From Crateriforma spongiae (GTDB lineage Bacteria; Planctomycetota; Planctomycetia; Pirellulales; Pirellulaceae), in assembly GCF_012290005.1 (NCBI RefSeq), contig NZ_JAAXMS010000007.1, positions 105,991 through 169,990 of the forward strand: a DNA stretch of 64,000 nucleotides. The letters run 5' to 3'. The notes beneath the pieces are model-generated. The model ran no database searches and was not told the DNA's origin. It worked only from the letters and a program-made list of their open reading frames with translations. Below are positions 1 through 18,100 of this stretch, one piece after another (positions within the stretch are counted from its first letter, which is position 1; each line of letters opens with the position of its first letter). The position numbers were made by a program, and so were the translations under genes.

Positions 1-193
1 TCGCGGGCAAGCGGACGCCTGGGGTGGGCCGAGGTCCCGCTATTTTGAGCCGACTTGGCCGATACGCCAGTCCGGGCCGAATGGTTCAACCGCAAAAAAA
101 CGACCCGATCCGCCCTCCGCGGGCTCGTAGGCGGTTCCCCAGCGGGTATCGAAAGTGCGAGCGGCGGATTGCCCTTGGCTAGGCGGCCCTTGT

Positions 194-1459
194 TTAGGCG
201 GCCCGGCGACCGAAAGCCGGCATTCGGCGTGATCGCTCCGTGACGCTGTCGACGGTACCCGCGGCATCGTCGAACTGGTGGGGCTGGTCACCGGACCGAA
301 GGTCGCTGGTGATCTGTTCCGACAAGAATTCGGCGGCCCTTTTCGTGGCACCCGGCAACGCGACCCGATTGCGAAGTTCTGCTAGATCGGCCTTCAGCCG
401 TCGGAAATAGAACTCGTCGCCCAGCATCGCATCGATCGACTCGGTCAAAAAGTCCACCGCTGGTTCGATGGGACCGACCGAGATCATCTCCGGATAAAGG
501 TTCCGATCGCTCATCAAATTGGGCAGTGTGATGCTGTTGATGTTCACGACACGCTTGCCGAATTCGTGAAGCAACCGGCCGATCCGGTAGGTGACGGCCG
601 CGGGGGTCTGGCGGGCCATCAGTTCTAGACTGACCGATCCGCTGACCATCATGGCACAGCGGCTGAACTGGATGATTTCGCTGGTCGCCCCGACGAAAAA
701 GTGGATGGGTAAGTCGCGGTCCGAATCGCTCAATTGGTCTCGGCACCACAAGCACTGGTCGTTGCGATAGGCGGCGACCATGAAGTGGGCGTCCGGGTGC
801 ATCTGGTGCAAACGGCGGATGGCGGCCAATTGAATGGGAAAGTTCCGATGGACTTCGTGCGATCGCGATCCGGGCAAAACCGCAACCGCGCCGCGGTCGT
901 CCTTGGCAATCCGCCGCAGTCCCGCCATGACCATCGGATCCAGTGGCTTTTCGGCGACGGCGTCGAAAAAGGGGTGTCCGACCAACGTCGTCGGTATCCC
1001 GGCGGTTTGAAAGTAGTCTTCTTCGATCGGCAGAACCGCCAGCACGTGGTCGACCAGGCGACGCATCTTGGCAACACGCCATCCGCCCCAGGCCCACAAT
1101 TGTGGCGGGCAGTAATAGTACACCGGGATCCCATAACGCTTGGCACGCTTGGCGATGTGCCAATTGAATCCAGGGAAATCGACCAGCACGACGGCGTCGA
1201 CGGATGAATCACGAAAGACTTGTTCGGCTTCGTCGGCGAACCGAAAGAAGTCACGCAGTTTGGGCAAGACTTCCAATAGCCCCACCACCGCGTGGCGAGT
1301 CAAATCCAAGTCCAGATGACAGCCGGCGGCCGCCATCGCCGGACCCCCAAATCCGCGCAGATGCACCGACGGATCAGCTTGGCGAAGCGCATCGGCCAGT
1401 CGGGCGGCGTGCTGGTCACCGCTTGGTTCACCGACGGAAAAGAAGATCGATCGGGACAT
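194..1459 (-). CDS. lpxB: Lipid-A-disaccharide synthase LpxB
   Basis: Joins UDP-2,3-diacylglucosamine and lipid X to form the lipid A disaccharide, at the inner face of the cytoplasmic membrane (GT19 family). Seen: an N-terminal FFSVGEPSGD motif, PQLWAWGGWR followed by VLAVLPIEEDYF, VGHPFFDAV, LPGSRSHEV (nucleotide-binding loop) and SGSVSLELM near the C-terminus, in the order expected for LpxB. About 421 residues, slightly longer than the E. coli enzyme (382), mostly from a C-terminal tail of some 40 polar residues. The start was set at MSRSIFF; ATGs 6 and 33 nt upstream are possible but add only Pro-rich residues, and no clear Shine-Dalgarno decides between them. No other lipid A gene is visible here; the gene reads away from the rest of the window. 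Confidence 0.95.
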   Translation of the reverse strand: MSRSIFFSVGEPSGDQHAARLADALRQADPSVHLRGFGGPAMAAAGCHLDLDLTRHAVVGLLEVLPKLRDFFRFADEAEQVFRDSSVDAVVLVDFPGFNWHIAKRAKRYGIPVYYYCPPQLWAWGGWRVAKMRRLVDHVLAVLPIEEDYFQTAGIPTTLVGHPFFDAVAEKPLDPMVMAGLRRIAKDDRGAVAVLPGSRSHEVHRNFPIQLAAIRRLHQMHPDAHFMVAAYRNDQCLWCRDQLSDSDRDLPIHFFVGATSEIIQFSRCAMMVSGSVSLELMARQTPAAVTYRIGRLLHEFGKRVVNINSITLPNLMSDRNLYPEMISVGPIEPAVDFLTESIDAMLGDEFYFRRLKADLAELRNRVALPGATKRAAEFLSEQITSDLRSGDQPHQFDDAAGTVDSVTERSRRMPAFGRRAA

Positions 1460-2908: not shown

Positions 2909-5455
2909 ATGCGACAATTTCTTTCACGACAGTGGGTGTCCAGCGGTGGCGGCGACAAGCCGGCCGGGCCGGCGGTGGACCGCGCCACTTGGGGTGAGAC
3001 GTCGCAGACGCGTGCTTGGGCAGGACTTTGGCCTCGACGTTGGCCGGCCTGGATTGCCGTTGTCTTGGCGCTGCTGATCGGCTCGGCGGTATGGGCGGTT
3101 TATTCGGTGACCGAAAGGTCCACCCGTAAAATCGCCGAGAACAATGTTTCGTCGATGCTGTCGGCCGGCGTTTCGGCGCTCCAGTTGTGGTTGATGGACC
3201 AGCGGCAAATCACCGCGGGGCTGATTGAAGACTGCGAGGCCCAGTATCCGCTGGGGTCGGCATTGGCCGCCGCAACGGCTCCGGTGCAAAGCGATGATAC
3301 GCCGGCAGATGTTCTGCAGGCTGCACAGGATGTGACACAGTTCTTGAACGAACAGATCACGACGCGTGATGAAGATATCGATTGCACCGGGTGGCTGATT
3401 GTCGACGCGGACGCCACGATTCGCTTGTCATCCCGACCCGAATTGATCGGGCGTTCGTTTGCCCGTCTGCGTCCCGGCTTGGACACCTGTTTTCGTTACG
3501 ACAGCACCGTGACGCCCGCGTTGCCGTTGCCGATACACGACGGCGATCCATCGGCGGCGATCCATTCTCGGCGTGACTTGGCAATGATCGCGTTGTCGAC
3601 GATCCGAGACGGCGTCTTGCCGGTCGGGGCGTTCGGGTTGCTGTTGGACCCTGCCCATCGATTCACCGAAATCTTGTCGGTCGCCCGAATGGGCGAGACG
3701 GGGGAAACGTACGCGTTTGATAGTGATGGGGTGATGATCAGCCAAAGCCGGTTCGATCGTCAGCTTCACACCCTGGGCTTGGTTGATGAAGCTTCCGGGG
3801 CCAACAGCGTTTTGCGGGTCACCATCCGTGATCCAGGACTTGATCTGCTGCACGCTTCGCCATCAGACCGCCAGCGCATTGTGCAACAGTGGGACCAGTT
3901 GCCGCTGACGAAGATGGCCGCGAAGGCGATCGACGGACGCTCGGGGATCGACGTCAACGGGTACACCGATTACCGCGGCGTCAAAGTCATTGGCGCTTGG
4001 CAATGGTTGGACGAATACGGTTTCGGTGTGACGACCGAAATGGATCACGAAGAAGCTTACCAAGCGATCGATTTTCTGCGTTTGGCGACGTGGACCCTGC
4101 TGGCGGCTTTGGCGTTGACGGTGGTGTCGTTGGCCGCGGTGTCATTGGTGTTCAGCCGACTGTATGCCAGCACCGCGGCGATGCGTGGCGCGATCCGCCG
4201 TTTGGGCCAGTACGAATTGTTCGAAATCATCGGACGCGGTGGAATGGGGACGGTGTATCGGGGCCAGCATCAACTGCTGCGACGCGACGTGGCGATCAAA
4301 GTGCTGGAACGTGTCGATGAATCCGATGACATCATCCCGCTGGCCGACAGTCGAGCGGTCGAACGGTTTGAACGCGAGGTGCAGATGACGGCCAAGCTGG
4401 GGCACCCCAACACGGTGAACGTGTACGACTATGGCCGCACGGCCGAAGGCACGTTCTTCTATGTGATGGAACACGTCGGTGGGATGACCGTCCGCCAGTT
4501 GATCAAAGCCGACGGGCGACAATCACCGGGGCGTGTGATTCATTTGCTGGTTCAAGTTTGTGGGTCGATCCAGGAGGCTCATCATCACGGGCTGATTCAT
4601 CGCGATATCAAGCCGGGCAACATCGTCGTGGTGAACTTTGCCGGTCTGTATGACATGGTGAAAGTGCTGGACTTTGGATTGGTTCGTAACCTACAGCGGA
4701 CCGATCACACGCTGACCTCGCCGACCGCGCTGACCGGAACGCCGATGTACATGGCACCCGAGGTCATTCGCAATTCCAAGCATGCCGATCGCAGCAGTGA
4801 TCTTTATGCGATCGGGGCGGTGGGCTATCAGTTGTTGACCGGTGTGACACCCTATGACGCGACCGCCGTACCAGAGATCTGTGCGATGCGATTGGGCGGC
4901 GATCCCGAACGTCCGGCCGATCGAATCGGCTGTCCACTGCCCGATGACTTGCAAGATGTGCTGATGGACTGTCTGAGCCACGACATCGAACGACGGCCGG
5001 CAACGGCGGGTGACCTGGCGGACCGTTTGCGAGGTTGTGCTGATGTCGGATCGTGGACCGAAGACGATTCGCGGCAATGGTGGTCTCGTTTTGGCGACGC
5101 GTATGATTCGGCGTCGACACCCTCGGGGGAATCCGCCGTGGTGGCACAGCCCGGCCGACCGATCCGCCCGATGCGTGACGTATGGGATTCCCAAAGCGAT
5201 GCGGTTACCGATCCCGCGGCCAGTCTGATGTCGGGACAATGGGACGACGATGAGGGACGACCACCATCGGCATCCGAGCCGCCACGCGGGGGCGACAACA
5301 CCGCACCCACCGCAGACGATTCGCGGACGTTTTCCTACAATCCGGCCGAACACGGCTTGGTCGTCGATCGACAGCCGGACCCGGCGATTTCCCCCGACGC
5401 TGCCACGACCGAATCCACCCACGGCGAAGACGACCAGACCAAGGAATCAGGCTGA
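2909..5455 (+). CDS. Membrane Ser/Thr protein kinase with extracytoplasmic sensor domain
   Basis: 848 residues. A short cytoplasmic N-terminus leads to transmembrane segment 1 (about 45-66), an extracytoplasmic domain of some 320 residues (about 67-390) that resembles a double-Cache sensor in size and layout, transmembrane segment 2 (about 394-416), then a Hanks-type kinase domain (about 431-700). Key residues are all present: glycine loop GRGGMG, VAIK lysine 464, HRDIKPGN with catalytic Asp 566, DFG Asp 588 and a MAPE activation-segment end, so it should be active. The last 140 or so residues are Pro/Asp-rich and look disordered. Its TGA overlaps the ATG of the next gene by one base, so the two are probably translated together. 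The usual bacterial order is sensor after kinase (PknB-like); here the sensor is N-terminal. The ligand is unknown. Confidence 0.93.
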   Translation: MRQFLSRQWVSSGGGDKPAGPAVDRATWGETSQTRAWAGLWPRRWPAWIAVVLALLIGSAVWAVYSVTERSTRKIAENNVSSMLSAGVSALQLWLMDQRQITAGLIEDCEAQYPLGSALAAATAPVQSDDTPADVLQAAQDVTQFLNEQITTRDEDIDCTGWLIVDADATIRLSSRPELIGRSFARLRPGLDTCFRYDSTVTPALPLPIHDGDPSAAIHSRRDLAMIALSTIRDGVLPVGAFGLLLDPAHRFTEILSVARMGETGETYAFDSDGVMISQSRFDRQLHTLGLVDEASGANSVLRVTIRDPGLDLLHASPSDRQRIVQQWDQLPLTKMAAKAIDGRSGIDVNGYTDYRGVKVIGAWQWLDEYGFGVTTEMDHEEAYQAIDFLRLATWTLLAALALTVVSLAAVSLVFSRLYASTAAMRGAIRRLGQYELFEIIGRGGMGTVYRGQHQLLRRDVAIKVLERVDESDDIIPLADSRAVERFEREVQMTAKLGHPNTVNVYDYGRTAEGTFFYVMEHVGGMTVRQLIKADGRQSPGRVIHLLVQVCGSIQEAHHHGLIHRDIKPGNIVVVNFAGLYDMVKVLDFGLVRNLQRTDHTLTSPTALTGTPMYMAPEVIRNSKHADRSSDLYAIGAVGYQLLTGVTPYDATAVPEICAMRLGGDPERPADRIGCPLPDDLQDVLMDCLSHDIERRPATAGDLADRLRGCADVGSWTEDDSRQWWSRFGDAYDSASTPSGESAVVAQPGRPIRPMRDVWDSQSDAVTDPAASLMSGQWDDDEGRPPSASEPPRGGDNTAPTADDSRTFSYNPAEHGLVVDRQPDPAISPDAATTESTHGEDDQTKESG

Positions 5456-7551
5456 TGTTCGGTTGGAAACTGCGTGGCAAATCGGCGGCCGTGGATTGGC
5501 CGTCCTTGGCCGCTTTGCTGGACGACGACGACCGCCGGGCGGCGATCCAACACGATGCGCCGCAGCAGCATCGTGAAAGCTTCACGTCGGCACTGCGAAG
5601 CATCGACACATCGCTGGCCCAGCAGGTCCACGCGGCGGGCCGTCAATTGCATTCGGCGTCGGCATTGGTGGATCGTCCGACCATCGCCGTGGCGGGAATG
5701 TTGAACAGCGGAAAGACCAGTCTGGTGTCGACGTTTCTAAGCGATCAAGGCAAACGCCGGGCACTGCGTGGAATCGGCAACCACCAAGGAACGCACCGAT
5801 TTGTGCTGTGGTTGCCACAGTCCTGGCAAAAAGACCCCCAGCTTTGGCAACTGCTGTTGCAACGGATCGGCGACGCATTGGGGGCCGCGCCGGTGGATCT
5901 GGATCAAGATCCGGAAACCGCGTGGGCACAGTACAACAACACCGGCGGATCCGAAGCGGAGTTGCAAATCCCGTTGATCGCGACCGACCCGGGGTTGGAT
6001 GCGGCGGGCGTCGGACTGTTGGATTGCCCCGACATCGTCTCCGATGCATCGCTTGGTTTGGGTTCGCCCGAACAACGTCGTGATTTGTTGGGAAAGGCGG
6101 CGACGTTGTGTTCTGCATTTTTGGTCGTGACGTCGGCCGAATCGTCACGCGATTCACATCTGACCGAACTATTGAACGTTGCCGCTGATTTGATGCCCGG
6201 CGTTCCACGTGTGTTGGCGGTCAACCGTGTGCGTCCGCCTCAAACACCCGATCAAGTACACGAAGCGTTTGCTCGTGTCGCCGAGATGCACGGGGTCGAT
6301 ACGATCTATGCGGCCTATGATTTTGATGTCCCCAAAAGTCGTCCGTTCATTCCGGAAGATGCCACGGGCGAATTGACAACGATGGGCGATGACGGTGCTG
6401 CGGAGTTTCCCGTCTTCTATCGCGTCGACGCCGATCCGGACCAGAACCCGCCGGCCGCCATTGACCCGGATCGTTGGCTGGTCGCGTTGCCCGAGCAATT
6501 GGACCGTGGGGTCTTGTTCGATCGCTTCCAGGCGTCTCTGCAGTCGCGGTTGCAAGACTTGGTTTGCGACGACGCCATGACTTGCTTGGAAGCGTCGGCC
6601 GATGCATCGCGGAAAGCCTGTCACGATGCCCGACAGTGTTTGTTGCAAGCGGTGTTGGATTTCTTTGCACATCGCGATGTGACCGGTGAAGTCATCGATT
6701 TGCGATTGCATCAAAGCCAGCGCATCGTGCGTCAGTTGACCGAAGCCTTTGCCGATACGGCGCCCTGGTATGCCCGCTGGGGCGTTCGTTTGAACTCGAC
6801 GGTTCGGCGTGTCTTTGGCGGCGTGCGAGACGTTTTGCGTCATTTGGCTCCCACCGCCATGGCACAGAAGGCGGCTGATGATGTCGCCGACAAGTTCCGG
6901 CGTGGCGAGTTCGGTGGGCTGCTGACACCGGAAAAACTGCAAAAGTCCATTCAGCGTCACGGGGGGAACACCGCCCTGTCGCATTTCGGTGACCAGGCCG
7001 ATTGGAATGACGCGATCGAAACGGCGCTGCTGCGTTTTGAACAAGATGACTTCACGACATTGAATCCACGTCGACTGCATCAAGCGGCCGAAAAGATGTG
7101 GGCGGAGGTTCCGATGCGGCGCAAGCTGACATCCGGTTTGACCCCGTTGGTCGCGTTGTTCGCTGCCTTTGCCGGTGTCTTGATGATTCCGGTCGATTTC
7201 GGCGCCAACTTCATCGCCGCCGCATCGATTTCCGAATTGTTTGCCGCCGCTGGACTGACGGCACTCGCGGCACTGTGGGCGGGTGACAAAAGTCTTCGTG
7301 ACGTCGGGCACCAAGCGGCGCGACAACAAATCGCGGACTTTCACGCCGTCCTGTGCGATTGCTTTGGCGTACCCCGGACCGCCGGCGGTCCAGGCGAAGC
7401 GACCGACAATGATATGATTCTGATGGTCCGGCAAAAACGGTTGCCGATGATGAAACCAGACATCATTCGACGTGACAGTGAAGGCCCGGCGTTGCGTGTA
7501 TTCCATGTTCGCGATGAATTCCGCCAAGACCTGGTGCGACAGTTCCCTTGA
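5455..7551 (+). CDS. Membrane-anchored P-loop GTPase-like protein (first of two)
   Basis: 698 residues. A P-loop GMLNSGKTS lies at about 81-89, and a Walker B/G3-like segment LLDCPDI at about 189-194 (DxPG replaced by DCPD). A G4-like stretch AVNRV follows, but the NKxD signature is not intact. The C-terminal third has two hydrophobic segments (about 558-620), so the protein probably sits on the cytoplasmic membrane with both ends inside. The layout (N-terminal helical lead, G domain, long helical middle, paired membrane segments) recalls dynamin-like or YdcF/DUF697-type membrane GTPases, without a firm match. Its ATG overlaps the kinase stop, and the second GTPase-like gene starts 44 nt after its own stop. 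It could be a substrate or partner of the kinase (inference). Confidence 0.8.
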   Translation: MFGWKLRGKSAAVDWPSLAALLDDDDRRAAIQHDAPQQHRESFTSALRSIDTSLAQQVHAAGRQLHSASALVDRPTIAVAGMLNSGKTSLVSTFLSDQGKRRALRGIGNHQGTHRFVLWLPQSWQKDPQLWQLLLQRIGDALGAAPVDLDQDPETAWAQYNNTGGSEAELQIPLIATDPGLDAAGVGLLDCPDIVSDASLGLGSPEQRRDLLGKAATLCSAFLVVTSAESSRDSHLTELLNVAADLMPGVPRVLAVNRVRPPQTPDQVHEAFARVAEMHGVDTIYAAYDFDVPKSRPFIPEDATGELTTMGDDGAAEFPVFYRVDADPDQNPPAAIDPDRWLVALPEQLDRGVLFDRFQASLQSRLQDLVCDDAMTCLEASADASRKACHDARQCLLQAVLDFFAHRDVTGEVIDLRLHQSQRIVRQLTEAFADTAPWYARWGVRLNSTVRRVFGGVRDVLRHLAPTAMAQKAADDVADKFRRGEFGGLLTPEKLQKSIQRHGGNTALSHFGDQADWNDAIETALLRFEQDDFTTLNPRRLHQAAEKMWAEVPMRRKLTSGLTPLVALFAAFAGVLMIPVDFGANFIAAASISELFAAAGLTALAALWAGDKSLRDVGHQAARQQIADFHAVLCDCFGVPRTAGGPGEATDNDMILMVRQKRLPMMKPDIIRRDSEGPALRVFHVRDEFRQDLVRQFP

Positions 7552-7595
7552 TACTTTGGGCCATCTCTGCCTGATCCATCGATCCTTCATTCCAA

Positions 7596-9539
7596 GTGGT
7601 GCCCGTGTCGGCGTCTGAATCCCAGCATACTGAATGGTTGGCCTCGCCCTTGGCTGGTCCAGCGACCGACACCGCCCCTGGTGACTTGTTTTTACAACGT
7701 GTCCGACGGGCAACCCGCAATGTGTTGGGCAATACACCGCTGGGACAACAGGTCGTCGCCCTTTGCGAAGACCACGCACGGTCACGCGCCGCAATCTTGA
7801 ACGATCGTGCCGGCGGTGCCGCGGTGGTTGCGGTCGTGGGGGCCACCGGTCAAGGCAAATCGTGGCTGGTCCGCCAGATGATTCGGCGTTCGGGAACTCG
7901 TGAATTGATCGCCAGCGGGAATAACCTGGACCAAGCGACCGAAAAGCTTCGCTGGATCGGGCCAATGCCTCCCGCGGATCTGGACGCGTCAAGCGAGGAA
8001 TTCTTGATGTGCCCCGCCGATCAAATGGAACCGATCGGCACGCCCTACCTGATCGTTGATTCACCCGGGGCGACCGACGACCGACAAAGGATCGCTGATG
8101 TGGCGCGACGTGCGTTGGCAATGGCGACGGTGCTGGTGCTGGTCGTTCGACGCGATCAAATGCGTAGCCATTCGGTCACGGTTTTGAATCAAATCGGTGA
8201 AGGCACCATGGTCGTGCCCGTGATCAATGCCGTCCGCGACGGTGACGATTCCGTGGCCATCGACGCCGATGCTTTTCAGTCACGTTTGCGAAAGACCGCT
8301 CCCGCCAGTCTGATCGTGCGTCCGGTGATCGTGGCCGATTTCGACACGGTCGATCAGGGCGAAGACCAAGTCGGACACCAAGCGGCACAGCAGGTGGCTT
8401 CGGCGATTGAAAAGGCAATGGTCGAAAACGGGCAAGCCGGTCACCGTCAAGCGACACGCCTGAACGTGCTGGATACTCGTTTTCGATCCGCATTGCATTC
8501 CATTTTGCGGGACCGATTGCCCGGGCTTTCCAATGCGGTCCAGTCGTTGCATCGCGAGACGAAGCAGATCCCTTCGCACGTTGCCGAAAGCTTGTTGGGG
8601 TCGGGCGGTTCGTTACGCGCGGTCGTCCGTTCCCGTTTGCGATTGTCGCTGATGGAGAATACGTCGGCGATCTGGTTCCCTTATCGATCAATTTTGGGCG
8701 TGCTGAATTTAACCAGCGGTGCCTGGGATCGTTTGCTGCTTTCGCTGTCCGGTTCGCTGCCATCATTGATCGGGACGATCTGGGCGGGCACCCGCAACGT
8801 GATGGAAGGTCAAAACGCGGCGTCGGAGATACGCGAAGGACTGTTGCGACGCAGCAACGCCGCCATCGATGACCGGCTGCGCCCGTTAACGTTGCATTTT
8901 CGATCCGAACTTTCAAAGCTTCGCCAGGATGCGGAACCGGGCGATGGCGATCACAGTGATTCGGCCGTGGCTTCGCTCGCGGGGCTGGATACTTTGCAAG
9001 AAGAATCACAACGCATTGTCCAGCGTTGTACGGACGCCGCGTCATGGCCCGCCTGGGCATCGACCCTTGCCGGTTTGATCGGGACGACGGTCTTTTGGGC
9101 CTTGTTGGCGGGCCCGATCGTCGCACTGTATCGGGAATACCTTTCAGCCAGCTATGGCGTGGTGGGGCAAGGATCCGCAGTGCTGGAATCGTTCCCCCAT
9201 CCTAATTTTTCGATGATCCTGACCAGCGTCCTACTATCGCTGTTGCCCATGGCCGTTTTCGCGATGTGGGTGGTGGCGATGGTTCAGCGGCGTGGAAAAG
9301 TTCATGCCGTTGAAACACAGATTCGCGACGAACACCATCACGTGATCGGACGAATGCAAAGTGATGGCGTTCTGCGACTGCGCTGGGATGATCCGTTGCT
9401 GGCCGATGCAGAATTCCTGTTGTCGATCGGTTTGAATTCGATGCCCGGCGATCGGAGTGCAAACGATCTGGGGTCACACGATCAGGCGTCAAACCATCGC
9501 CCGAATGACCAATCGGCGACGGAGAATACCGAAGTATGA
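7596..9539 (+). CDS. Membrane-anchored P-loop GTPase-like protein (second of two)
   Basis: 647 residues. P-loop GATGQGKSW at about 82-90, G3 motif IVDSPGATD with Asp about 155, and a G4-like VINAVRD. The G3 motif is closer to a true GTPase DxPG than in the preceding gene, while the two proteins share little obvious sequence, so they are not a recent duplication. Two strong membrane segments lie near the C-terminus (about 487-510 and 537-560), with a further hydrophobic stretch at about 355-395. GTG was taken as start (GTG codons at 7596, 7599 and 7605 are all possible). The stop overlaps the next ATG by 4 nt (ATGA), which points to coupled translation with the ExbB-like gene. Function unknown; probably a membrane-remodelling or switch protein. 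Confidence 0.78.
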   Translation: MVPVSASESQHTEWLASPLAGPATDTAPGDLFLQRVRRATRNVLGNTPLGQQVVALCEDHARSRAAILNDRAGGAAVVAVVGATGQGKSWLVRQMIRRSGTRELIASGNNLDQATEKLRWIGPMPPADLDASSEEFLMCPADQMEPIGTPYLIVDSPGATDDRQRIADVARRALAMATVLVLVVRRDQMRSHSVTVLNQIGEGTMVVPVINAVRDGDDSVAIDADAFQSRLRKTAPASLIVRPVIVADFDTVDQGEDQVGHQAAQQVASAIEKAMVENGQAGHRQATRLNVLDTRFRSALHSILRDRLPGLSNAVQSLHRETKQIPSHVAESLLGSGGSLRAVVRSRLRLSLMENTSAIWFPYRSILGVLNLTSGAWDRLLLSLSGSLPSLIGTIWAGTRNVMEGQNAASEIREGLLRRSNAAIDDRLRPLTLHFRSELSKLRQDAEPGDGDHSDSAVASLAGLDTLQEESQRIVQRCTDAASWPAWASTLAGLIGTTVFWALLAGPIVALYREYLSASYGVVGQGSAVLESFPHPNFSMILTSVLLSLLPMAVFAMWVVAMVQRRGKVHAVETQIRDEHHHVIGRMQSDGVLRLRWDDPLLADAEFLLSIGLNSMPGDRSANDLGSHDQASNHRPNDQSATENTEV

Positions 9540-10357
9540 ACAGAGGTTTGGGTTTGTTTTGGCAATCATTGATGGGGCTGGCCCAGGCCACCAGTGACGC
9601 GGCACCGGACGACGACGGCGCCGGATTGTTCGAAATCGTCTTCAGTGGCGGATGGATCGGTCTGATCATCATCCTGGTGTTGTTCTGCCTCAGTGTGGCA
9701 GCGGCCTATCTCGTGTTCGATCAGTTCATGACGTTACGACGTGCGGAAATCTTGCCGCCTTCGGTCGCCGACAGCGTCCGACAATCGCTATTGACCGGTC
9801 GCCTCGCCGATGCCGATGCGGTGTGTCGCCGCACACCCAGTGTCATCAGTGTGGTCCTGTTAGCAGGTTTGGCGGAACGAGAGTTCGGCTGGTCCGAGGT
9901 TGAAAAAGCCGTGGAAGATACCTTGGCACAGCAGTCGGCCAGGTTGATGCGACGCATCGAATACTTGTCGGTGATCGGAAACATCGCGCCGATGGTCGGA
10001 TTGTTGGGCACGGTGACGGGGATGATTTTCGCCTTTCAACAAGTGGCGACCACTCGCGGAGCGGCCGGCGCGGGTGACTTGGCCGAAGGCATTTACCAAG
10101 CATTGGTGACGACGGTCGGCGGTTTGGTGGTCGCGATCCCGTCGCTGGCGGCGTATGCCATCTGTCGAAACCGCGTCGATTCGTTGATCGCCGAAGTGGC
10201 TCAGCAAACCGTGCACGCGTTAACCCCCATCAAGCGGCGGCCCGGCACGTCGCAGCGCACGGCCACCCGGAAGTCTCCCGCATCGCCGGCGTCTTCGTCA
10301 TCGACGCCCAAAGCGCCCGCTGCCGCACCGGACGATCGGCCTCCGAAACGGACTTGA
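9536..10357 (+). CDS. MotA/TolQ/ExbB proton-channel family protein
   Basis: 273 residues with three membrane segments (about 41-62, 144-170, 190-213) and the typical large cytoplasmic loop between the first and second. The third-segment region carries the family signature: SVIGNIAPMVGLLGTVTGM followed by EGIYQALVTTVGGLVVAIP. In known systems these proteins form a pentamer around an ExbD/TolR/MotB dimer and turn proton or sodium flow into work on the envelope. No ExbD/TolR partner lies beside it; downstream is a sulfatase. The last 45 or so residues are Thr/Ser/Pro/Ala-rich and probably disordered. Overlap with the upstream GTPase-like gene strongly suggests it acts with it. Confidence 0.92.
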   Translation: MNRGLGLFWQSLMGLAQATSDAAPDDDGAGLFEIVFSGGWIGLIIILVLFCLSVAAAYLVFDQFMTLRRAEILPPSVADSVRQSLLTGRLADADAVCRRTPSVISVVLLAGLAEREFGWSEVEKAVEDTLAQQSARLMRRIEYLSVIGNIAPMVGLLGTVTGMIFAFQQVATTRGAAGAGDLAEGIYQALVTTVGGLVVAIPSLAAYAICRNRVDSLIAEVAQQTVHALTPIKRRPGTSQRTATRKSPASPASSSSTPKAPAAAPDDRPPKRT

Positions 10358-12073: not shown

Positions 12074-13393
12074 GTGAGCAAGACAGCGACACGACATGCC
12101 TTGGTCTTTATCTGCGGCTGCATTACTGCGTTGATGGTATTTGGTGGCCACACGCTGATGACCGGCCAGTTGTCCGGGCCTCCGCCGATCACTGATGACC
12201 AACTGGCCTATGACAGTCTGGGTTGGGAAATTGCCAACAGCGGCATCTATCAAACGCACTATGCATCGCCGACGTTTTTGAACGCCTACGGTGGCGCGGC
12301 CGATGCCATCTTGGATCTGCACGGATCCGAGAATCCCAGACGGGTTGGCCCATGGCCGACCGCCATGCGGCCGCCGCTGTATCCGTATCTGCTGGCACTC
12401 GGCAATCGGCTGTTGGGACGCCAGTTCATGTTTGGTCGCCTCATCAACCTTGCGGCCGCTGCATTGACTTGTGGCATCTTGGCTTTACTTGCCGATCGCT
12501 TCGGCGGATGGCCCACGGCGGTCGTTGCGGTGGGCCAGTTTTGTTTAGTGGATGTCCGAACACGCATGTTTGCCAGGACTTTGCTGACCGAAAGCTTGGC
12601 GATGCTTGCGATCGCAGTTTTATTCTGGGTCTTGATTTCTGTGATGGATCGTCGCCGAACCCGGCCCTATCGCGGATGGATCATCGCTGGCGTCGTTCTT
12701 GGGGTATCCGCACTTCTTCGATCCATGTTTGTCCTGTGGATTCCCGTCATCGCAATCGGTCTGTGGCGTCGGAAACGCAAGAGCAGTGAAACGGGAACCG
12801 CGTCCGGCGAATGGATTCCAATCGCGGGCATGGTGTTGATCGCGACGTTGGTGCTTTCGCCTTGGATGGTGCGGAACTTAACGGTGTTGGATGGCTTTCA
12901 ACCGCTGGGCACCCAAGGCGCGAAGGACGCGGTCGCGGGGTATAGCGATCGGTCGCTTCGTGGAATGGGGCTTTGGTGGGATCCGCGTGCCGCCGGATTG
13001 TTCGATGACGTGGGGACGAACTTGGGTAGCCTTGAAACCGAAACGCAGTGGGGACGCACCAGCGTGGCCTTGGCGAAAAATTGGATCGTTTCCGATGGGT
13101 ACAAATTACCCGTGCTGGCCGCGGCAAAAGTCTTCAGTGCTTGGAGGCCTTGGAACTTGGGTGACCTGTATGTGTCCGCGTTTGCATTGTTGGGATGGAT
13201 TGCCTATCGGCAGACCGAGCATGCCCGTGTCGCGGGGATTTTGTGGTTGGCGTGTACGCTGGGCATCGCCGCCACTTGGTCAACGGCCGGGCGGTTCACG
13301 GTTCCCCTGTTGATGCCGATTCACTTGTTTGCGTCACTGGGCGTCGTCCATTGTTGGCGAAGCACACTGCACGATCCACCAGCGGATGTGTAG
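12074..13393 (+). CDS. GT-C (ArnT/PMT-like) membrane glycosyltransferase
   Basis: 439 residues with about ten hydrophobic segments. It has features of the PMT_2/GT39-GT83 group: an acidic pair in the first extracytoplasmic loop (PPITDDQLAYDSLG, Asp 41-42), a TAMRPPLYPYLLAL motif, and ARTLLTESLAMLAIA later. These enzymes transfer sugar from a polyprenyl-phosphate donor on the periplasmic side. GTG start at 12074, 9 nt after the sulfatase stop, so likely co-transcribed. A link between sugar transfer and sulfate removal on a surface glycan is inference only. Confidence 0.82.
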   Translation: MSKTATRHALVFICGCITALMVFGGHTLMTGQLSGPPPITDDQLAYDSLGWEIANSGIYQTHYASPTFLNAYGGAADAILDLHGSENPRRVGPWPTAMRPPLYPYLLALGNRLLGRQFMFGRLINLAAAALTCGILALLADRFGGWPTAVVAVGQFCLVDVRTRMFARTLLTESLAMLAIAVLFWVLISVMDRRRTRPYRGWIIAGVVLGVSALLRSMFVLWIPVIAIGLWRRKRKSSETGTASGEWIPIAGMVLIATLVLSPWMVRNLTVLDGFQPLGTQGAKDAVAGYSDRSLRGMGLWWDPRAAGLFDDVGTNLGSLETETQWGRTSVALAKNWIVSDGYKLPVLAAAKVFSAWRPWNLGDLYVSAFALLGWIAYRQTEHARVAGILWLACTLGIAATWSTAGRFTVPLLMPIHLFASLGVVHCWRSTLHDPPADV

Positions 13394-13460
13394 ATTGCCG
13401 ACTTCCAACGTTTTGTTTCAAAACATTTTCGAGATCACCCTTTTCAACCAAGCAATCGCC

Positions 13461-13769
13461 ATGTCACTGATTCAAAAGACTGTTGCCGCACTGATTCTTA
13501 CCGCGTGTCTTTCATCCGTCGGATGCCAACCGGCGAACAACCCGGGAACGTGGGACGAAGCCAAAGCGAGCGAGTACATCAAGGAACAGTTGTCGCTGGA
13601 ATCGGTGGAGTTGACCAAAACCAGTGACGGGTTCACCGGAACGGGCACCGATGCCGACGGTGAAACCTTTGAGTTGGTACTGACGCAACAGCCCGATCAA
13701 AATCGCTTGGAGTATGACGCGACCGGATCGCGTGGGACGATGGAAAACGGTTTCTATTCGACCAATTGA
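13461..13769 (+). CDS. Small putative lipoprotein
   Basis: 102 residues. MSLIQKTVAALILTACLSSVGC is a signal peptide ending in a lipobox-like SVGC, so the mature N-terminus is probably lipid-modified. The rest is acidic (DEAKASEYIKEQLSL, TGTGTDADGETFELVL) without cysteines or a known domain. The start was taken at the ATG at 13461; the longer frame upstream puts unrelated residues before the signal sequence. Function unknown; likely an outer- or inner-membrane lipoprotein of the envelope. The gene is 67 nt after the glycosyltransferase and ends inside a terminator-like hairpin. Confidence 0.75.
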   Translation: MSLIQKTVAALILTACLSSVGCQPANNPGTWDEAKASEYIKEQLSLESVELTKTSDGFTGTGTDADGETFELVLTQQPDQNRLEYDATGSRGTMENGFYSTN

Positions 13770-13779
13770 AAACCGTTTT
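13744..13779 (+). terminator. Probable terminator hairpin at the lipoprotein 3' end
   Basis: aaaacggttt at 13744-13753 pairs perfectly with aaaccgtttt at 13770-13779. The 10-bp stem ends in four T residues, but the loop is 16 nt and the stem is AT-rich, so it is a weak intrinsic terminator candidate. It overlaps the last codons of the lipoprotein gene. Confidence 0.45.
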
Positions 13780-14117
13780 GCCAGGAAGCAGGGCGAGCCG
13801 ATTGCCAGTGTCCGATAAGGCGTGCCACACGTGTGCTGGTCTTCAACGTCCCCCGGCAATTCACCGATCCGCGTTGTGGGGCGTCCGAAGATTTGACAGA
13901 TCGATGAATTTTCGATTTATTTTGATCGCTGGCTTTAAACCTGGATCGCACCCAACGCGACCAGGCACATGAGGGCGTAACAGGCAAAGATCAAGAGTTG
14001 TCGTTGTTGCATCGTTTGCTTCGCTTTCGTTTGTGTGGCGACTGTTTTAGGCGGTGCCATCAAGCACACCCTTGGTGACAGGGATTCAATGGGACCACGG
14101 CGATTGGTTGTGCCGTG
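13780..14117. other. Intergenic region after the lipoprotein gene
   Basis: About 340 nt. The only notable item is a minus-strand 25-codon frame at 13935-14012, listed separately. No tRNA, repeat or longer conserved-looking frame was seen. Confidence 0.5.
13935..14012 (-). CDS. Possible 25-residue single-span membrane peptide
   Basis: ATG then Gln-Gln-Arg-Gln followed by a run of about 19 hydrophobic residues (LLIFACYALMCLVALGAI) and stop. The composition fits a tiny transmembrane peptide of the kind common in intergenic regions. No clear Shine-Dalgarno is visible upstream, and the frame is short enough to arise by chance. Confidence 0.25.
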   Translation of the reverse strand: MQQRQLLIFACYALMCLVALGAIQV

Positions 14118-14804
14118 TTATTGGCGTTTGCGGATGTAGTCGACGACCGCTTCAGGATTCGGGATGTCATGAATGATGACTTCCATGTCGTCCTGCCCCG
14201 CGCTGGAAACGGCGATATCACCAAAGCGGAACAAACGCTCGAATAAGTTCTGGTCGACTTTCAAGTTGCGGACGTCTTCGTGACGAATTTCACTGGTACC
14301 GCGGTGAATGATTCCGTAACGATAAATCATTCGCTCGTTGGTCAGTTTCAGTGAGTGCATCCGGCTCTCGATCAGCCATTTCATCAGAAACACCAGCCCG
14401 ATACCCAGCAGCACGCCACCAGGGAGCATCAAAGTCAGTCCGGTGATTCCTTCAATGGATGATCCGGCGACTCCCAGGCCCAGAACCAGCCCGCCAATGA
14501 TCGCCGCTGCGACACAGACAATCGTTCCCAAAAGGTGCCTTCGAAAGACGACGGGATGGATGACCTTTTCGATCGCTTCGTCTTCGGCCAAGTCGTCGGC
14601 ACTCAGAATGGTCGACGGGTCGGTGTCACTGTCGTGTTTGGCGGGATAGGCTCGCGGCGGAACGACTTCAAAAGGACGATCGCAGTGGGGGCAGCTGATC
14701 GTTTCACCGATCAAGTGTTGTTCGATGCCGATGGTCGATTCGCAGATCGGGCAGGTGTAGACCAGTGCTCGATCTTGGGGCTTGGCTTCGGTGCTGGAAA
14801 TCAT
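14118..14804 (-). CDS. Membrane protein with zinc ribbon and bacterial PH (YdbS-like) domain
   Basis: 228 residues from the ATG at 14804, which follows a GAAGG-type Shine-Dalgarno. Four cysteines in two CPxC pairs (Cys 18/21 and 38/41) form a zinc ribbon, then an acidic linker, two membrane segments (about 91-115 and 121-145), and a C-terminal bacterial PH (bPH2) domain with LTNERMIYRYGIIHRGTSEI, DVRNLKVDQNLFERLFRFGDI and the closing DIPNPEAVVDYIRKR. Such proteins sit on the cytoplasmic membrane; the role of YdbS/YdbT-type proteins is not well settled. A zinc ribbon fused to this domain is seen in planctomycetes. Read in the same direction as the giant gene, with about 300 nt between the giant gene's stop and this ATG. 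Confidence 0.85.
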   Translation of the reverse strand: MISSTEAKPQDRALVYTCPICESTIGIEQHLIGETISCPHCDRPFEVVPPRAYPAKHDSDTDPSTILSADDLAEDEAIEKVIHPVVFRRHLLGTIVCVAAAIIGGLVLGLGVAGSSIEGITGLTLMLPGGVLLGIGLVFLMKWLIESRMHSLKLTNERMIYRYGIIHRGTSEIRHEDVRNLKVDQNLFERLFRFGDIAVSSAGQDDMEVIIHDIPNPEAVVDYIRKRQ

Positions 14805-15080
14805 GGGACCTTCGCCTGTGTGGGTGTGTGAAAGGAGGACCGGCCGTGAGCGATCCGTCCACCGGGACGCTTTGCGTGGCGCGGCCAAAGGCGTGCCGGT
14901 CGCCGGCGGCACCATGACATTGCAAGTGCCGAGCCAAACACTCGACCGTCACCGTTCACGCAATGCGGGCAGCGGGAAAAAGCAGAATGTCGCCGGCGAT
15001 CGTTCAATGATCGCGCGGCCTGATCGTCAACCGCGCAGCCGCGATTCACAGGGGCGGTCTCATCTCCTGGCTGATTGATC

Positions 15081-15115
15081 GATCAGCCAAGATCTAGATG
15101 GATCAGCCAAGATCT
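15081..15115. repeat. 20-bp-period direct repeat over the giant gene's stop codon
   Basis: gatcagccaagatct occurs at 15081-15095 and again at 15101-15115. The second copy encodes the last residues (Asp-Leu-Gly) and the stop of the giant protein, so the first copy repeats the end of the gene and its stop codon just outside it. Confidence 0.8.
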
Positions 15116-18100
15116 TCATCAAAGTCGGCGAACACTTGGTCAGCCGTTTCCGACCAAGCGGGATCTGAGGCGGTGGATTCGCCTTCACCGTCACCATGAC
15201 GATTCAGATGATTGATCACCAACAACGCATCGAACGCGGACACTTCGTCATTTCCGTCAACATCGACAAACGGTTTGGGATGAACCGAATCGTTGATGGG
15301 GGGGAGTTTTCCGGTGGCACGATCATGAATTCGGGCCGATGCCAGTTCATTGATAATTTGCAGCGCGTCGAACGCGGACACGTCACCGGAATCGTCAACA
15401 TCGTAGGCGTCGATGGGGTTCTGCCATGACTCGGGTAAATCCGAATTGGCTTGTCGGTTCAAACGGTTGATCACCTGCAAAGCGTCCAGCGCGGTCAGTT
15501 GTCCATCGCCGTTAACGTCATAGAACGGTGGTGGCCCTACATCGTCCGTGATTGCCGGCAGATCGCCTGTCACTTGGTCGTGGACTCGCGCGGCGTTCAG
15601 TTCATTGATGATCACCAGCGCGTCTCGTGCGGTCACGTCGTTGTCGTTCGTGACGTCGTATCGATCGATCGGGTTCTGCCAACCCGCGTCGAAGTTCATT
15701 TGGATGTCGCGAACATTAGCAGAGCTGGTGTCATCGCCGAATCCGATCAAGTCGAACATCAGTGTTGCGGTTTGACCGTAAGCCGATTCTGGGATCGGCA
15801 CGGTGACGTTGATCGGAGCGCTCAAGTCGGCCAACGCGTCACCACTTGCCTGCACACCCGATGCGGCCACTCCGTCACTGAAGAAGGCCTGTCCGCCTGC
15901 TTGGATATTCAGCAGGGCGTCACCACCGGTCATCCCGATCATCTCCGGCATGATCGATTCCGTCGTCGTCGCGTTCAGCAGCGAGACTTCGAATGCTTCC
16001 GGCGGATGAGCACCCTGCCCCACATCGAGATTCATTCCACCCAGCGTGAACGTGATCGACTGCACACCCTGCGGCACCACGAATGTCTGCGACAGATCCG
16101 AGATCATCCCGACGTCTTCACTGATTGTTGCGATGCCATCGGCAATCATCACATCACCGACAGTTTGCCATCGCAGTTCGATGGGTCCAGTTGGTGGCTC
16201 AAAACCACCATCTTGGATCCCTGTCGGCGGCGAGGCATTTAAGGCGTTCGTCAACTGTTCCGCCATTGGCACAAAACCGATTAGAGTGTGCTCAACAAAA
16301 TGAGTTCCACCGCCGCCCGCGAACTGGAATCCCTTTCGATGAACAGCAGTCACAATATCGATGTCAGACGGCGTCAGGGTTTTTCGCACCCCTGGGGCAA
16401 GTACAGCTGCCATGACTGCATCATTGTGCAATGTGGGGTCTAGTTCGCTGGTGGTATTCGCAAGAGAATACTTGTCGTTTGCCGTCTGTATTTCCCACGT
16501 CGATGTAGCGGAATCAAATGTTCGCAGTTCATCAAAACCGAAGACCGACGAAGAAAACCCAACTGCATGTCCGACCTCGTGAAGAGCGACTGTTGTTAGG
16601 TCATATCGATGGGCATGGCCTGAGTCCGCGATTCTCCATCCAAGTCCCGACGCATCATCATCGAAGGTGATCTCGGCCTGGATTTCCAACTGGGGTCCTG
16701 CGTATAGTTTCGTTTGAGCGAGGACGCCCGCAGGTAGGCTCTCAATCGAAACGTCGATCGATGGAAGACTAAAAATTTCATCATCGATCGACGCTTGCCA
16801 TTGCAACACTGCGTGTTCGATCGCTGTGTGAGCATGTTCTAGAGTGAAATCGCCAAAATCATGAACTCCGACATCAATTGTTCCAATCGCCTGTAGAAAC
16901 AGCGGATCGATGGGAAGGTTAGGGGCTCGCGAGGGTGCAAAGTCCAGCGGTTCGCCGGTAATTACTAATGTTGGAACGGCGTAGAAAGGACCCTGACCGA
17001 TGTCAGCTTTGTACTTCCGCAATTCCTGAGCACGGGCGAAAGACACTTCGGGTGCCAAGGAGCCACCTTGCGAGGTGTATTGAGCCGCCAAGCCTCCTGT
17101 CTGACTTTTGTCGATACCAAACTTTGCCGCGAGAAAGTCAGCCACCTCACGTGCAAGCACCACTTCATTTTTCGCTAATCGCACTTGTGCCTTTGAAAGA
17201 TCCAGGCGGCCATCGGACTTGTCTCGCATGACAGCAAGCGCAATATCCAACGAAGTCGGATTCTGGCCGGTGGTTGTCGCGACGCCGTCAAACTCACGGA
17301 GCAACCCGGGCCCGTAATGTCCGGATCCGTCATTGATCTCCAAAATGACGCCGTCTTTGATGGTGATTTGACCCGCGGCAACCACTTCCTTGCCGTTGGC
17401 CAGTGCGGAGTGTTTGATGTCATCGGCCTGCGAGCCCTCCTTTCGATACGCTACGAGTGTTTCACCGTCTTTTGTGGTAACAAAAATCGATTCACCATCG
17501 GCGGCATCAGGCGTTGAAATAGCTTGGCCGTTGCGATCGACGAGTCGTCCGTTGTCGTCGTAGCGAACCGTGAAACTGTCAATTTCATCCGGCGTCAATT
17601 GTCGGAACGTGCCCGCTTGGATTGCGGCGTTATCTTGCTTTTGTTTGCCGTTAAAGTGATCTTTGTAGAATCTTGCGATTTTCTGATCAATCGGCACTTT
17701 GACCTTGTTGACATAGTTTGCCGACTTGATTCCGGTCAGACTTCCTGGACCAAACGGATGTCGTCTCGCGTTGATCGTAGCACGTCGAGAAACCAAGTGA
17801 TAACGAATGCAATTTGCTCGATCGAGGATCACATTCTTAAGATTTGGAGACTGAATTCCGTAGTGTTGGTTGTATTTGTACTTCGCTCCAACACCTAAGC
17901 CGAACAGCATGGTAATTTGCTGCAACCCCGCTTCCAACCGATCCACGGTATAGGGTTGCGTGAACATCTCACGCGTCGCCTTGAGCGTCACAATGTCACC
18001 GGCGTGTTCATAAAGACTCGGAACGCTGATTGTGGGCGACATTGCAGCGCGTCCCATGACGGAATCATTGATCGAGAGAATCACCGCATCGCCTGCCCAA

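Follow-up and report, generated by a model that had tools for sequence, protein, structure and literature searches.

A kinase, two P-loop proteins and an ExbB-type subunit encoded in a row

The window, a 64,000-nucleotide stretch of DNA, carries four consecutive open reading frames, all on the + strand (Table 1). They encode a membrane sensor Ser/Thr kinase, two P-loop proteins referred to here as GTP1 and GTP2, and an ExbB/TolQ-like subunit. The sequence bears out the tight packing reported in the preliminary description: the kinase stop codon overlaps the GTP1 start codon by 1 nt (TGATG at 5455), and the GTP2 stop codon overlaps the ExbB start codon by 4 nt (ATGA at 9536-9539). GTP1 and GTP2 are separated by a 44 nt spacer. 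A hydropathy scan predicts TM-like segments in each of the four products, in line with their description as membrane proteins. Around the locus, Pfam identifies lpxB, cinA and a sulfatase gene as the neighbours.

Table 1 Genes and features of the four-gene locus, with positions in the window
Feature	Position	Strand	Basis
Membrane sensor Ser/Thr protein kinase, 848 aa	2909..5455	+	ORF call, Pfam, hydropathy, motifs; orthologues upstream of GTP1
Pkinase domain, kinase aa 435-698	4211..5002	+	PF00069, E 2.2e-43
GTP1, predicted dynamin-like P-loop protein A, 698 aa	5455..7551	+	Predicted model, Foldseek, Fzo1 alignment, PADLOC LeoA
GTP1 P-loop GMLNSGKT, aa 81-88	5695..5718	+	Invariant positions in alignment A3
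Hydrophobic stretch of GTP1, aa 562-607, a candidate for a membrane paddle or a TM hairpin	7138..7275	+	Hydropathy; pLDDT lower there
GTP2, predicted dynamin-like P-loop protein B, 647 aa, GTG start	7596..9539	+	Predicted model, Foldseek, Dynamin_N
GTP2 P-loop GATGQGKS, aa 82-89	7839..7862	+	Invariant positions in alignment A4
Pair of TM-like helices in GTP2, aa 491-509 and aa 545-563	9066..9284	+	Hydropathy; model helices H486-525 and H538-563
ExbB/TolQ-like motor subunit, 273 aa	9536..10357	+	PF01618, E 1.4e-27; trees (ExbB-ExbD1-ExbD2-TPR group)

The kinase is intact, as had been stated: in addition to the Pkinase match, the VAIK, HRDIKPGN, DFG and APE motifs are all present. The kinase domain is preceded by a TM segment at aa 49-67, a dCache-like sensor region (dCache_1 match weak, E 0.012, below the Pfam cut-off) and a second TM segment at about aa 397-415, and is followed by a poorly conserved tail.

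GTP1 and GTP2 behave as an obligate pair, with the kinase as an optional addition

Within the order, GTP1 and GTP2 are held by the same 8 of 118 genomes, and are adjacent in 6 of these 8 (the exceptions are G113 and G051). GTP2 was found in all 16 further GTP1 genomes searched, including 14 in which the two genes are not adjacent. GTP2 adjoins GTP1 in 60 of the 74 loci with downstream sequence, and the genomes of the other 14 loci encode GTP2 elsewhere. The genome (G) and locus (L) samples share records (for example, L042=G461, L045=G101, L071=G051, L074=G109, L079=G105 and L110=G113, matched by the length of the contig and the position on it), and hence are not independent. We conclude that GTP1 and GTP2 behave as an obligate pair, since no genome checked for both holds one without the other. 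A single-sequence search of the phylum with GTP1 gave 3 of 292, a search too insensitive for remote relatives; a single-sequence scan of genome contigs with GTP2 and a viral-contig scan with alignment A1 each gave no relative.

Of the 80 loci fetched, 12 carry all four genes consecutively, as does the same-genus genome L231, so the arrangement does recur in relatives, with the kinase as its optional member. Among the 73 loci with upstream sequence, 15 have a kinase orthologue immediately before GTP1, and the other 58 have none at that position. The first set of relatives had suggested that the kinase is found only in the window; the 80-locus set, in which other loci carry it too, overturned this. 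On the GTP1 tree, of which only the crown clade was used because long branches meet at the base, linkage to the kinase changed state five times; the kinase was probably ancestral in the clade and then lost repeatedly. Sensor homologues occur in 14 of 17 GTP1-positive versus 3 of 14 GTP1-negative genomes, counts that include paralogues. Two split genomes (L039/L264 and L043/L265) have the kinase with GTP1 in one module and GTP2 with ExbB in another, apart from the first.

Other genes also recur near GTP1. Obg-like and pantothenate-kinase-like genes lie upstream of it in distant loci, in clusters of 8 and 9 loci (identities assigned on L077 only), and a DUF58-BatA-vWA block, identified in part and on L045, lies upstream in six loci. 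We judged all of these to be neighbourhood rather than parts of the system.

The ExbB has its partners in trans

The window's ExbB belongs to the MotA_ExbB family (PF01618, 96.4 bits against a gathering cut-off of 22.9), but it scores only 79.5 of the 221 bits required by the TolQ equivalog TIGR02796, and likewise falls short of the ExbB equivalog cut-off. Among the window ORFs examined with Pfam, no ExbD-type gene sits beside the four genes, as the preliminary description had noted. However, an ExbB without ExbD is ruled out as a reading, since the partners are found in trans in the same genome. Eight ExbD matches lie away from the locus, two of which form a pair without an ExbB. An ExbD1-ExbD2-TPR-like set lacking ExbB is present elsewhere, so that ExbB and this set are split between contigs C7 and C3; the TPR-like protein stays below the TPR thresholds of Pfam. 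A vWA homologue stands apart at C3:125288-126289 and carries the TonB/TolA-like S-x3-H of its TM helix as SLALH. In the vWA proteins of alignment A5, the two residues of this predicted motor-binding motif, S54 and H58, are invariant in all 5 rows. An ExbD lying elsewhere is one of the findings that the preliminary description had named as telling against its interpretation.

Eighteen GTP1-negative genomes of the family have a TPR match, and ExbB, ExbD1, ExbD2 and TPR lie together in 12 of them; 3 others are truncated where a contig ends, and for the remaining 3 the fetched stretch has the TPR gene but no ExbDs. Given that the ExbBs of L209 and L219 fall outside the main ExbB clade, and may represent a paralogous operon, 10 rather than 12 of these loci are secure. 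L196 is the only one of the loci compared to show a homologue of DUF58 (29% identity, 120 bits), located some 2 kb ahead of the TPR-like gene. From gene order and trees, we conclude that the window's ExbB has been displaced from an ExbB-ExbD1-ExbD2-TPR operon, which is vWA-linked in some genomes.

exbB appears to have moved behind gtp2 once

In a first ExbB tree, the GTP2-adjacent ExbBs (28 rows) formed one clade, with support of 97/91, inside the ExbD-linked ExbBs. This tree left out 4 of 28 loci and several split genomes. When these were added, 38 GTP2-adjacent rows fell in a 39-row group (SH-aLRT 92) with 2 changes; the G441 ExbB, which lies with ExbD1 and away from GTP2, falls inside the group and is the only such member, so that one clade with one change became two changes with lower support. 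The rows of both trees were picked by gene position, and hence do not count how often adjacency was kept. Most simply, the trees suggest that exbB moved behind gtp2 once and then stayed in nearly all of the group. We therefore regard the linkage as one event that was kept, rather than as repeated convergence. In L260, GTP2, ExbB, ExbD1 and ExbD2 are encoded in a row. ExbB is not beside GTP2 in 8 of 17 GTP1-positive family genomes, and it is likewise missing from that place in 27 of the 55 loci whose sequence extends past GTP2, indicating that the GTP1-GTP2 pair does not need this linkage.

An essentially single relocation could mean that GTP1 and GTP2 work as a dynamin-like pair (see below) while ExbB, together with the kinase, is a co-transcribed passenger; the exbB gene would have been rearranged, with its product still working solely with ExbD1 and ExbD2 in trans. 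The ExbB-ExbD-ExbD-TPR sets of genomes without GTP1, the 8 of 17 genomes just described, and the five changes in kinase linkage are all consistent with this, and we regard it as a real possibility that nonetheless falls short of even odds. It accounts less readily for the persistence of ExbB behind GTP2 across diverged genera in which the genes for ExbD1, ExbD2, the TPR-like protein and the kinase are scattered, for the single ExbB away from GTP2 in the 39-row group (rows, again, picked for adjacency), or for the CA13 genome, where ExbB stays behind GTP2 even though GTP1 lies megabases away.

GTP1 and GTP2 have predicted dynamin-like folds

The predicted model of GTP1 (pLDDT 84.2) matched Fzo1 with a Z score of 19.6 (rmsd 5.1, 303 aligned positions, residues 6-698). 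The match covers the whole chain, including the N- and C-terminal helices, and compares with a Z score of 13.5 for small GTPases; the best Foldseek matches were SynDLP and IniA. For GTP2 (pLDDT 80.6), the best Foldseek match was the bacterial dynamin BDLP (2j68, E 2.0e-8), with Z scores of 16.8 against mitofusin (5yew_C), tied with small GTPases, and 15.5 against Fzo1 (9kfd_A) over residues 27..615. Query-normalised TM-scores are low over the whole chain, at about 0.2-0.3. Both models combine a dynamin-type G domain with a helical stalk to which the N- and C-terminal portions contribute, and the hydrophobic region of GTP1 and the TM-like helices of GTP2 are predicted where a paddle or TM hairpin would be plausible. 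The two proteins also share a weak profile match across the G domain; hence, contrary to what had been supposed, they are not unrelated. Sequence searches gave little: Pfam returned no match for GTP1 and only P-loop matches below cut-off for GTP2, PDB sequence-profile searches gave no significant match for either, and Dynamin_N (E up to 0.1) was detected in 2 of 36 GTP1 and 12 of 30 GTP2 sequences. These models suggest that GTP1 and GTP2 are a dynamin-like pair at the level of the fold, with nucleotide-driven assembly and membrane remodelling as putative activities.

The nucleotide-binding motifs are unusual. P-loop residues G81, L83, N84, G86 and K87 of GTP1 are conserved in 36/36 rows of A3, and G82, G87 and K88 of GTP2 in 30/30 rows of A4. 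At G3, GTP2 has DxPG in 30/30 rows, whereas all 36 GTP1 rows have CPD (DCPD for DxPG), without the glycine. The G4 motif [NT]KxD, which includes NKxD, is absent from the aligned columns of both families (36 GTP1 and 30 GTP2 rows). Hence, neither protein was classed as a canonical GTPase, and GTP binding is only putative. These departures, the loss of the P-loop from two distant GTP2s (L035 and L036, both outside A4), and the G domain of GTP2, against which mitofusin scores no higher than small GTPases and EF-Tu, would suit signalling switches or ATP-binding scaffolds that pass on the signal of the kinase and so gate the ExbB channel, rather than remodelling dynamins. We consider this improbable, given the whole-chain preference of GTP1 for Fzo1 over small GTPases, and given that paired genes and TM-like segments are in keeping with bacterial dynamin-like proteins.

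A stress or phage-defence system of membrane surveillance, in which the pair would repair or seal the inner membrane and the motor would stabilise the envelope, with the kinase signalling damage, seems less probable still. In its favour, GTP1 is patchy (17 of 60 family genomes), PADLOC gave a weak LeoA match for GTP1 (E 5.3e-4, aa 36-96) and defence-kinase matches for the kinase, and a Bacillus dynamin-like protein confers phage resistance according to PMC8844932. Against it, the kinase matches are generic and cover the kinase domain, PADLOC returned nothing for GTP2 or ExbB, GTP2 had no plasmid match and GTP1 no phage match, and the Pfam neighbours are those named above.

A candidate link between membrane remodelling and an envelope motor

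The reading that we prefer, at a probability of about 0.45, is that a sensor-kinase-linked dynamin-like pair has been brought together with the channel subunit of a trans-envelope motor powered by protons, with physical coupling and phosphorylation as putative steps. The co-occurrence of GTP1 and GTP2, their dynamin-family matches, the ExbB-less ExbD1-ExbD2-TPR-like set and the vWA homologue of this genome, the ExbD-linked ExbB tree, the L260 gene order, the kinase linkage and the two modules of the split genomes all support it, and most bacterial dynamin-like genes are operon pairs, according to PMC6104087. Against it weigh the essentially single origin of the ExbB linkage, the many loci that lack this linkage or an adjacent kinase, the altered G3 and G4 motifs, and the two GTP2s that have lost the P-loop. 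GTP1 and GTP2 would assemble into a hetero-oligomer at the cytoplasmic side of the inner membrane and bend, tether or constrict this membrane. GTP2 may bind or position the ExbB pentamer, such that inner-membrane remodelling and the force exerted by ExbBD-vWA on the outer envelope would act at one place. The kinase might sense an extracytoplasmic ligand and phosphorylate one of the dynamin-like proteins, switching assembly on or off. The signal-to-envelope chain of the preliminary description, from kinase through P-loop proteins to channel, is kept as a hypothesis. A stronger version, a pmf-coupled dynamin machine in which the kinase-switched heteropair docks on the ExbB-ExbD motor, making inner-membrane constriction or invagination and outer-envelope pulling a single process, strikes us as rather unlikely.

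Relation to known systems

A literature search found no paper combining 'dynamin-like' and 'ExbB'. The papers that it gave for 'dynamin' and 'TolQ' all concern vesicles, to judge by their titles, and those for 'Rhodopirellula' or 'Pirellulaceae' and 'dynamin' describe no such system in their titles or the opening of their abstracts. Planctomycetes are reported to lack FtsZ, and a 2014 review called their budding mode unknown (PMC4164004). A dynamin-like pair genetically tied to a pmf-driven envelope motor and a sensor kinase offers concrete candidates for planctomycete membrane shaping; the locus suggests, short of proof, that inner-membrane shaping is coupled to an envelope-spanning motor in these bacteria. 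The displaced ExbB, seemingly partnerless, also warns against inferring function from missing neighbours.

GTP1 and GTP2 share their dynamin-like models, P-loops and TM-like segments with bacterial dynamin-like proteins, both single (BDLP, SynDLP, IniA, LeoA) and paired (Campylobacter Cj-DLP1/2), and their genes are adjacent, as are those of Cj-DLP1/2. They differ in being barely recognised by Pfam, in their altered G3/G4 motifs, and in their linkage to ExbB and a sensor kinase. The ExbB, two different ExbDs, TPR-like gene and vWA protein with S-x3-H (putative binding) correspond to the PVC TolQ-TolR-TolR-TPR-vWA motor described in PMC12204202, although here the operon is broken up and the ExbB gene lies behind the dynamin-like pair. 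The Tol-Pal and Ton energisers belong to the same ExbB/TolQ proton-channel family as the window's ExbB, which is set apart from these energisers by its sub-cut-off equivalog scores and its two ExbDs. Lastly, E. coli DgcE has a GTPase partner (PMC6510439), and so likewise ties a GTPase to a signalling enzyme; in the four-gene locus, the place of the diguanylate cyclase is taken by a Ser/Thr kinase together with a motor subunit.

Gene order at the locus and in relatives

The window lies at C7:105991-169990 of a 6.87-Mb genome in 48 contigs. As claimed in the preliminary description, four ORFs (sensor kinase, GTP1, GTP2 and ExbB) are present with overlaps of 1 nt and 4 nt; the remaining gap is 44 nt. 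The GTP1 alignment served as a pattern for finding related loci in genome_contigs, and the best 80 of 100 stretches were used; 77 of these 80 are labelled planctomycete, the exceptions being L083 ('bacterium'), L116 (Thiobius) and L117 (Rubritalea). The view of the four genes as one system holds in part: all four stand in a row in 12/80 loci (L038, L040, L041, L042, L054, L064, L065, L068, L070, L072, L073 and L114), but a kinase orthologue directly precedes GTP1 in only 15 of the 73 loci with upstream sequence. At two split loci (L039/L264 and L043/L265), the kinase is with GTP1 and ExbB with GTP2.

GTP1 and GTP2 as a probable dynamin-like pair

GTP1 is covered by no Pfam family, GTP2 has only sub-threshold Pfam P-loop matches, and BLASTP detects no similarity between them. 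AlphaFold models built from 36 (GTP1) and 30 (GTP2) related sequences were of good quality (pLDDT 84.2 and 80.6). Against truncated Fzo1 the GTP1 model (6..698) scored Z 19.6, with 303 residues aligned at rmsd 5.1, a wide margin over the highest-scoring small GTPase (Z 13.5); SynDLP, IniA and DRP1 held its top Foldseek ranks. Top Foldseek matches for GTP2 include BDLP (2.0e-8), Fzo1, mitofusin and LeoA; when only the G domain of GTP2 is compared, EF-Tu and Era do as well as mitofusin. The PADLOC LeoA model matches a short stretch of GTP1 (E 5.3e-4), and Dynamin_N matches 12/30 GTP2s (E up to 0.1). Whole-chain, query-normalised TM-scores are low for both proteins (about 0.2-0.3), and we therefore claim a dynamin-like fold and not close kinship. 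The two had been described as unrelated GTPases, a view that dynamin-like models for both, together with a weak profile alignment of their G domains (34.6% probability, E 4e-4), lead us to abandon. We put the probability that GTP1 and GTP2 are a dynamin-like pair at roughly 0.85.

The P-loop is conserved in 36/36 GTP1 and 30/30 GTP2 rows of the two alignments. We leave the bound nucleotide putative because GTP1 has CPD at the expected DxPG position, NKxD was found in neither protein in these alignments, and two distant GTP2s outside the GTP2 alignment (L035, L036) lack the P-loop. A conserved protein of ~290-360 aa precedes both distant pairs; Pfam gave no match for that of L036.

Searches with GTP1 and with GTP2 match the same 8 of 118 genomes of the order, with the genes adjacent in six and on separate contigs in two (G051, G113). 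GTP2 adjoins GTP1 in 60/74 loci with downstream sequence. A genome search for GTP2, covering 14 genomes with non-adjacent loci and two with adjacent copies, found it in 16/16 GTP1 genomes; in CA13 the genes are ~5.4 Mb apart in contig coordinates. Judged by this joint occurrence, GTP1 and GTP2 appear to be an obligate pair. They would form a hetero-oligomer on the inner membrane, a proposal supported by PMC6104087, according to which the majority of bacterial dynamin-like genes are operon-paired and a Campylobacter pair assembles as a 2:2 tetramer.

One genome (G434) has two tandem copies of a divergent GTP1-GTP2 pair that share 99.97% identity across 3,848 bases; its ExbB, ExbD1 and ExbD2 are still together. 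GTP2 is apparently in two pieces in two draft genomes.

Origin of the window ExbB

The window's genome has 8 ExbB/MotA and 8 ExbD matches. That no ExbD stands beside the window ExbB, as first described, is correct for the locus, but contig C3 carries an ExbD pair heading an overlapping ExbD1-ExbD2-TPR-like gene set, with no ExbB match nearby. In a 60-genome family sample, we considered all 18 GTP1-negative genomes with a TPR-query match (the remaining 25 GTP1-negative genomes had none and lie outside this comparison). ExbB, ExbD1, ExbD2 and TPR genes are together in 12/18; three are cut by contig ends, and in the other three the fetched stretch contains the TPR gene but no ExbDs. Among the 17 GTP1-positive genomes, ExbB is with both ExbDs in five, with ExbD1 only in one and apart from ExbDs in 11, directly behind GTP2 in nine of those 11.

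A vWA gene precedes ExbB in L205, L200, L213, L225 and L210, with a second gene of ~370 aa listed between them in four of the five. Pfam VWA is confirmed on the L205 protein, with which the other four align at 35-41%; all five, and the homologue in the window's genome, have S-x3-H in a TM helix. This is the same set as that described for the PVC group in PMC12204202 (a TPR gene, a tolQ-like gene, two tolR-like genes and a vWA transducer).

A tree of 54 ExbB-family proteins unites the 28 rows picked for their position behind GTP2 in a single clade (97/91), which nests among ExbD-linked ExbBs and lies far from the other ExbBs of the window's genome. A second, quick tree of 59 rows, including rows missing from the first, places all 38 GTP2-adjacent ExbBs within a 39-row group (SH-aLRT 92, not starred), whose sole other member (G441) is beside ExbD1. 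The position behind GTP2 thus changes twice on this tree, most simply by one gain and one later separation. The 9.5-kb contig L260, partly masked within ExbD2, carries GTP2, ExbB, ExbD1 and ExbD2 consecutively, an arrangement that is the expected intermediate; in the second tree its ExbB joins two further ExbBs close to the base of the 39-row group. From the ExbD sets, the trees and L260, we therefore conclude that the missing ExbD is located elsewhere, and the window ExbB is very probably a displaced motor subunit.

In G448, ExbB, the TPR-like gene and two ExbDs of putative ExbD1/ExbD2 identity are dispersed over four separate places, the ExbDs without a neighbouring ExbB. A single 349-aa open frame in G109 holds two ExbD matches, perhaps a fused ExbD1-ExbD2.

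The sensor kinase

Sensor and kinase domain are common to all 15 aligned kinases. On the GTP1 tree, kinase linkage occurs in two separate branches and requires five changes, or no fewer than three if starred branches alone are counted, which makes an ancestral kinase beside GTP1, later lost, likely but not proven. Sensor-domain homologues, paralogues counted in, occur in 14/17 GTP1-positive vs 3/14 GTP1-negative genomes searched (Fisher p 0.0011, relatedness uncorrected). One paralogue so counted is a second member of this family in the window's genome (sensor 33% identity).

Proposed model and neighbouring genes

The analysis establishes how the locus is built, the pairing of GTP1 with GTP2, their dynamin-like models, where the ExbB comes from and, at the level of the clade, the linkage. 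GTP2 may contact ExbB, and the kinase may control the system; we advance both couplings tentatively. More boldly, the locus could encode a proton-coupled dynamin machine, which we rate as less likely. The components are of known kinds; their combination (dynamin-like pair, ExbB and sensor kinase) was not found in the literature searched.

By eye, the translation of one long window ORF contains long YD/RHS-like repeats as well as other repetitive stretches. In L045, L048, L050, L051, L058 and L079, a block of DUF58 and BatA-like genes, represented in L045 by ORFs of 812 and 915 aa, is situated upstream of GTP1.

Coordinates of features in the window's genome (own) and in relatives
Feature	Location	Position	Strand
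vWA homologue	own, C3	125288-126289	
Second sensor-kinase family member	own, C7	293659-294726	
10,754-aa ORF	window	15103-47367	-
Tandem pair, one copy	L239 (G434:C2)	5307-9154	
Tandem pair, other copy	L239 (G434:C2)	12162-16009	
GTP2 in two pieces	L041	4145-5989	
GTP2 in two pieces	G404:C142	10317-12111	
Distant pair	L035	13560-18386	
Distant pair	L036	8957-14013	
ExbB	G448:C3	193700	
Lone ExbD	G448:C3	322158	
Lone ExbD	G448:C8	263133	
TPR-like gene	G448:C7	178832	
Two ExbD matches, one frame	G109:C1	3539351-3540226
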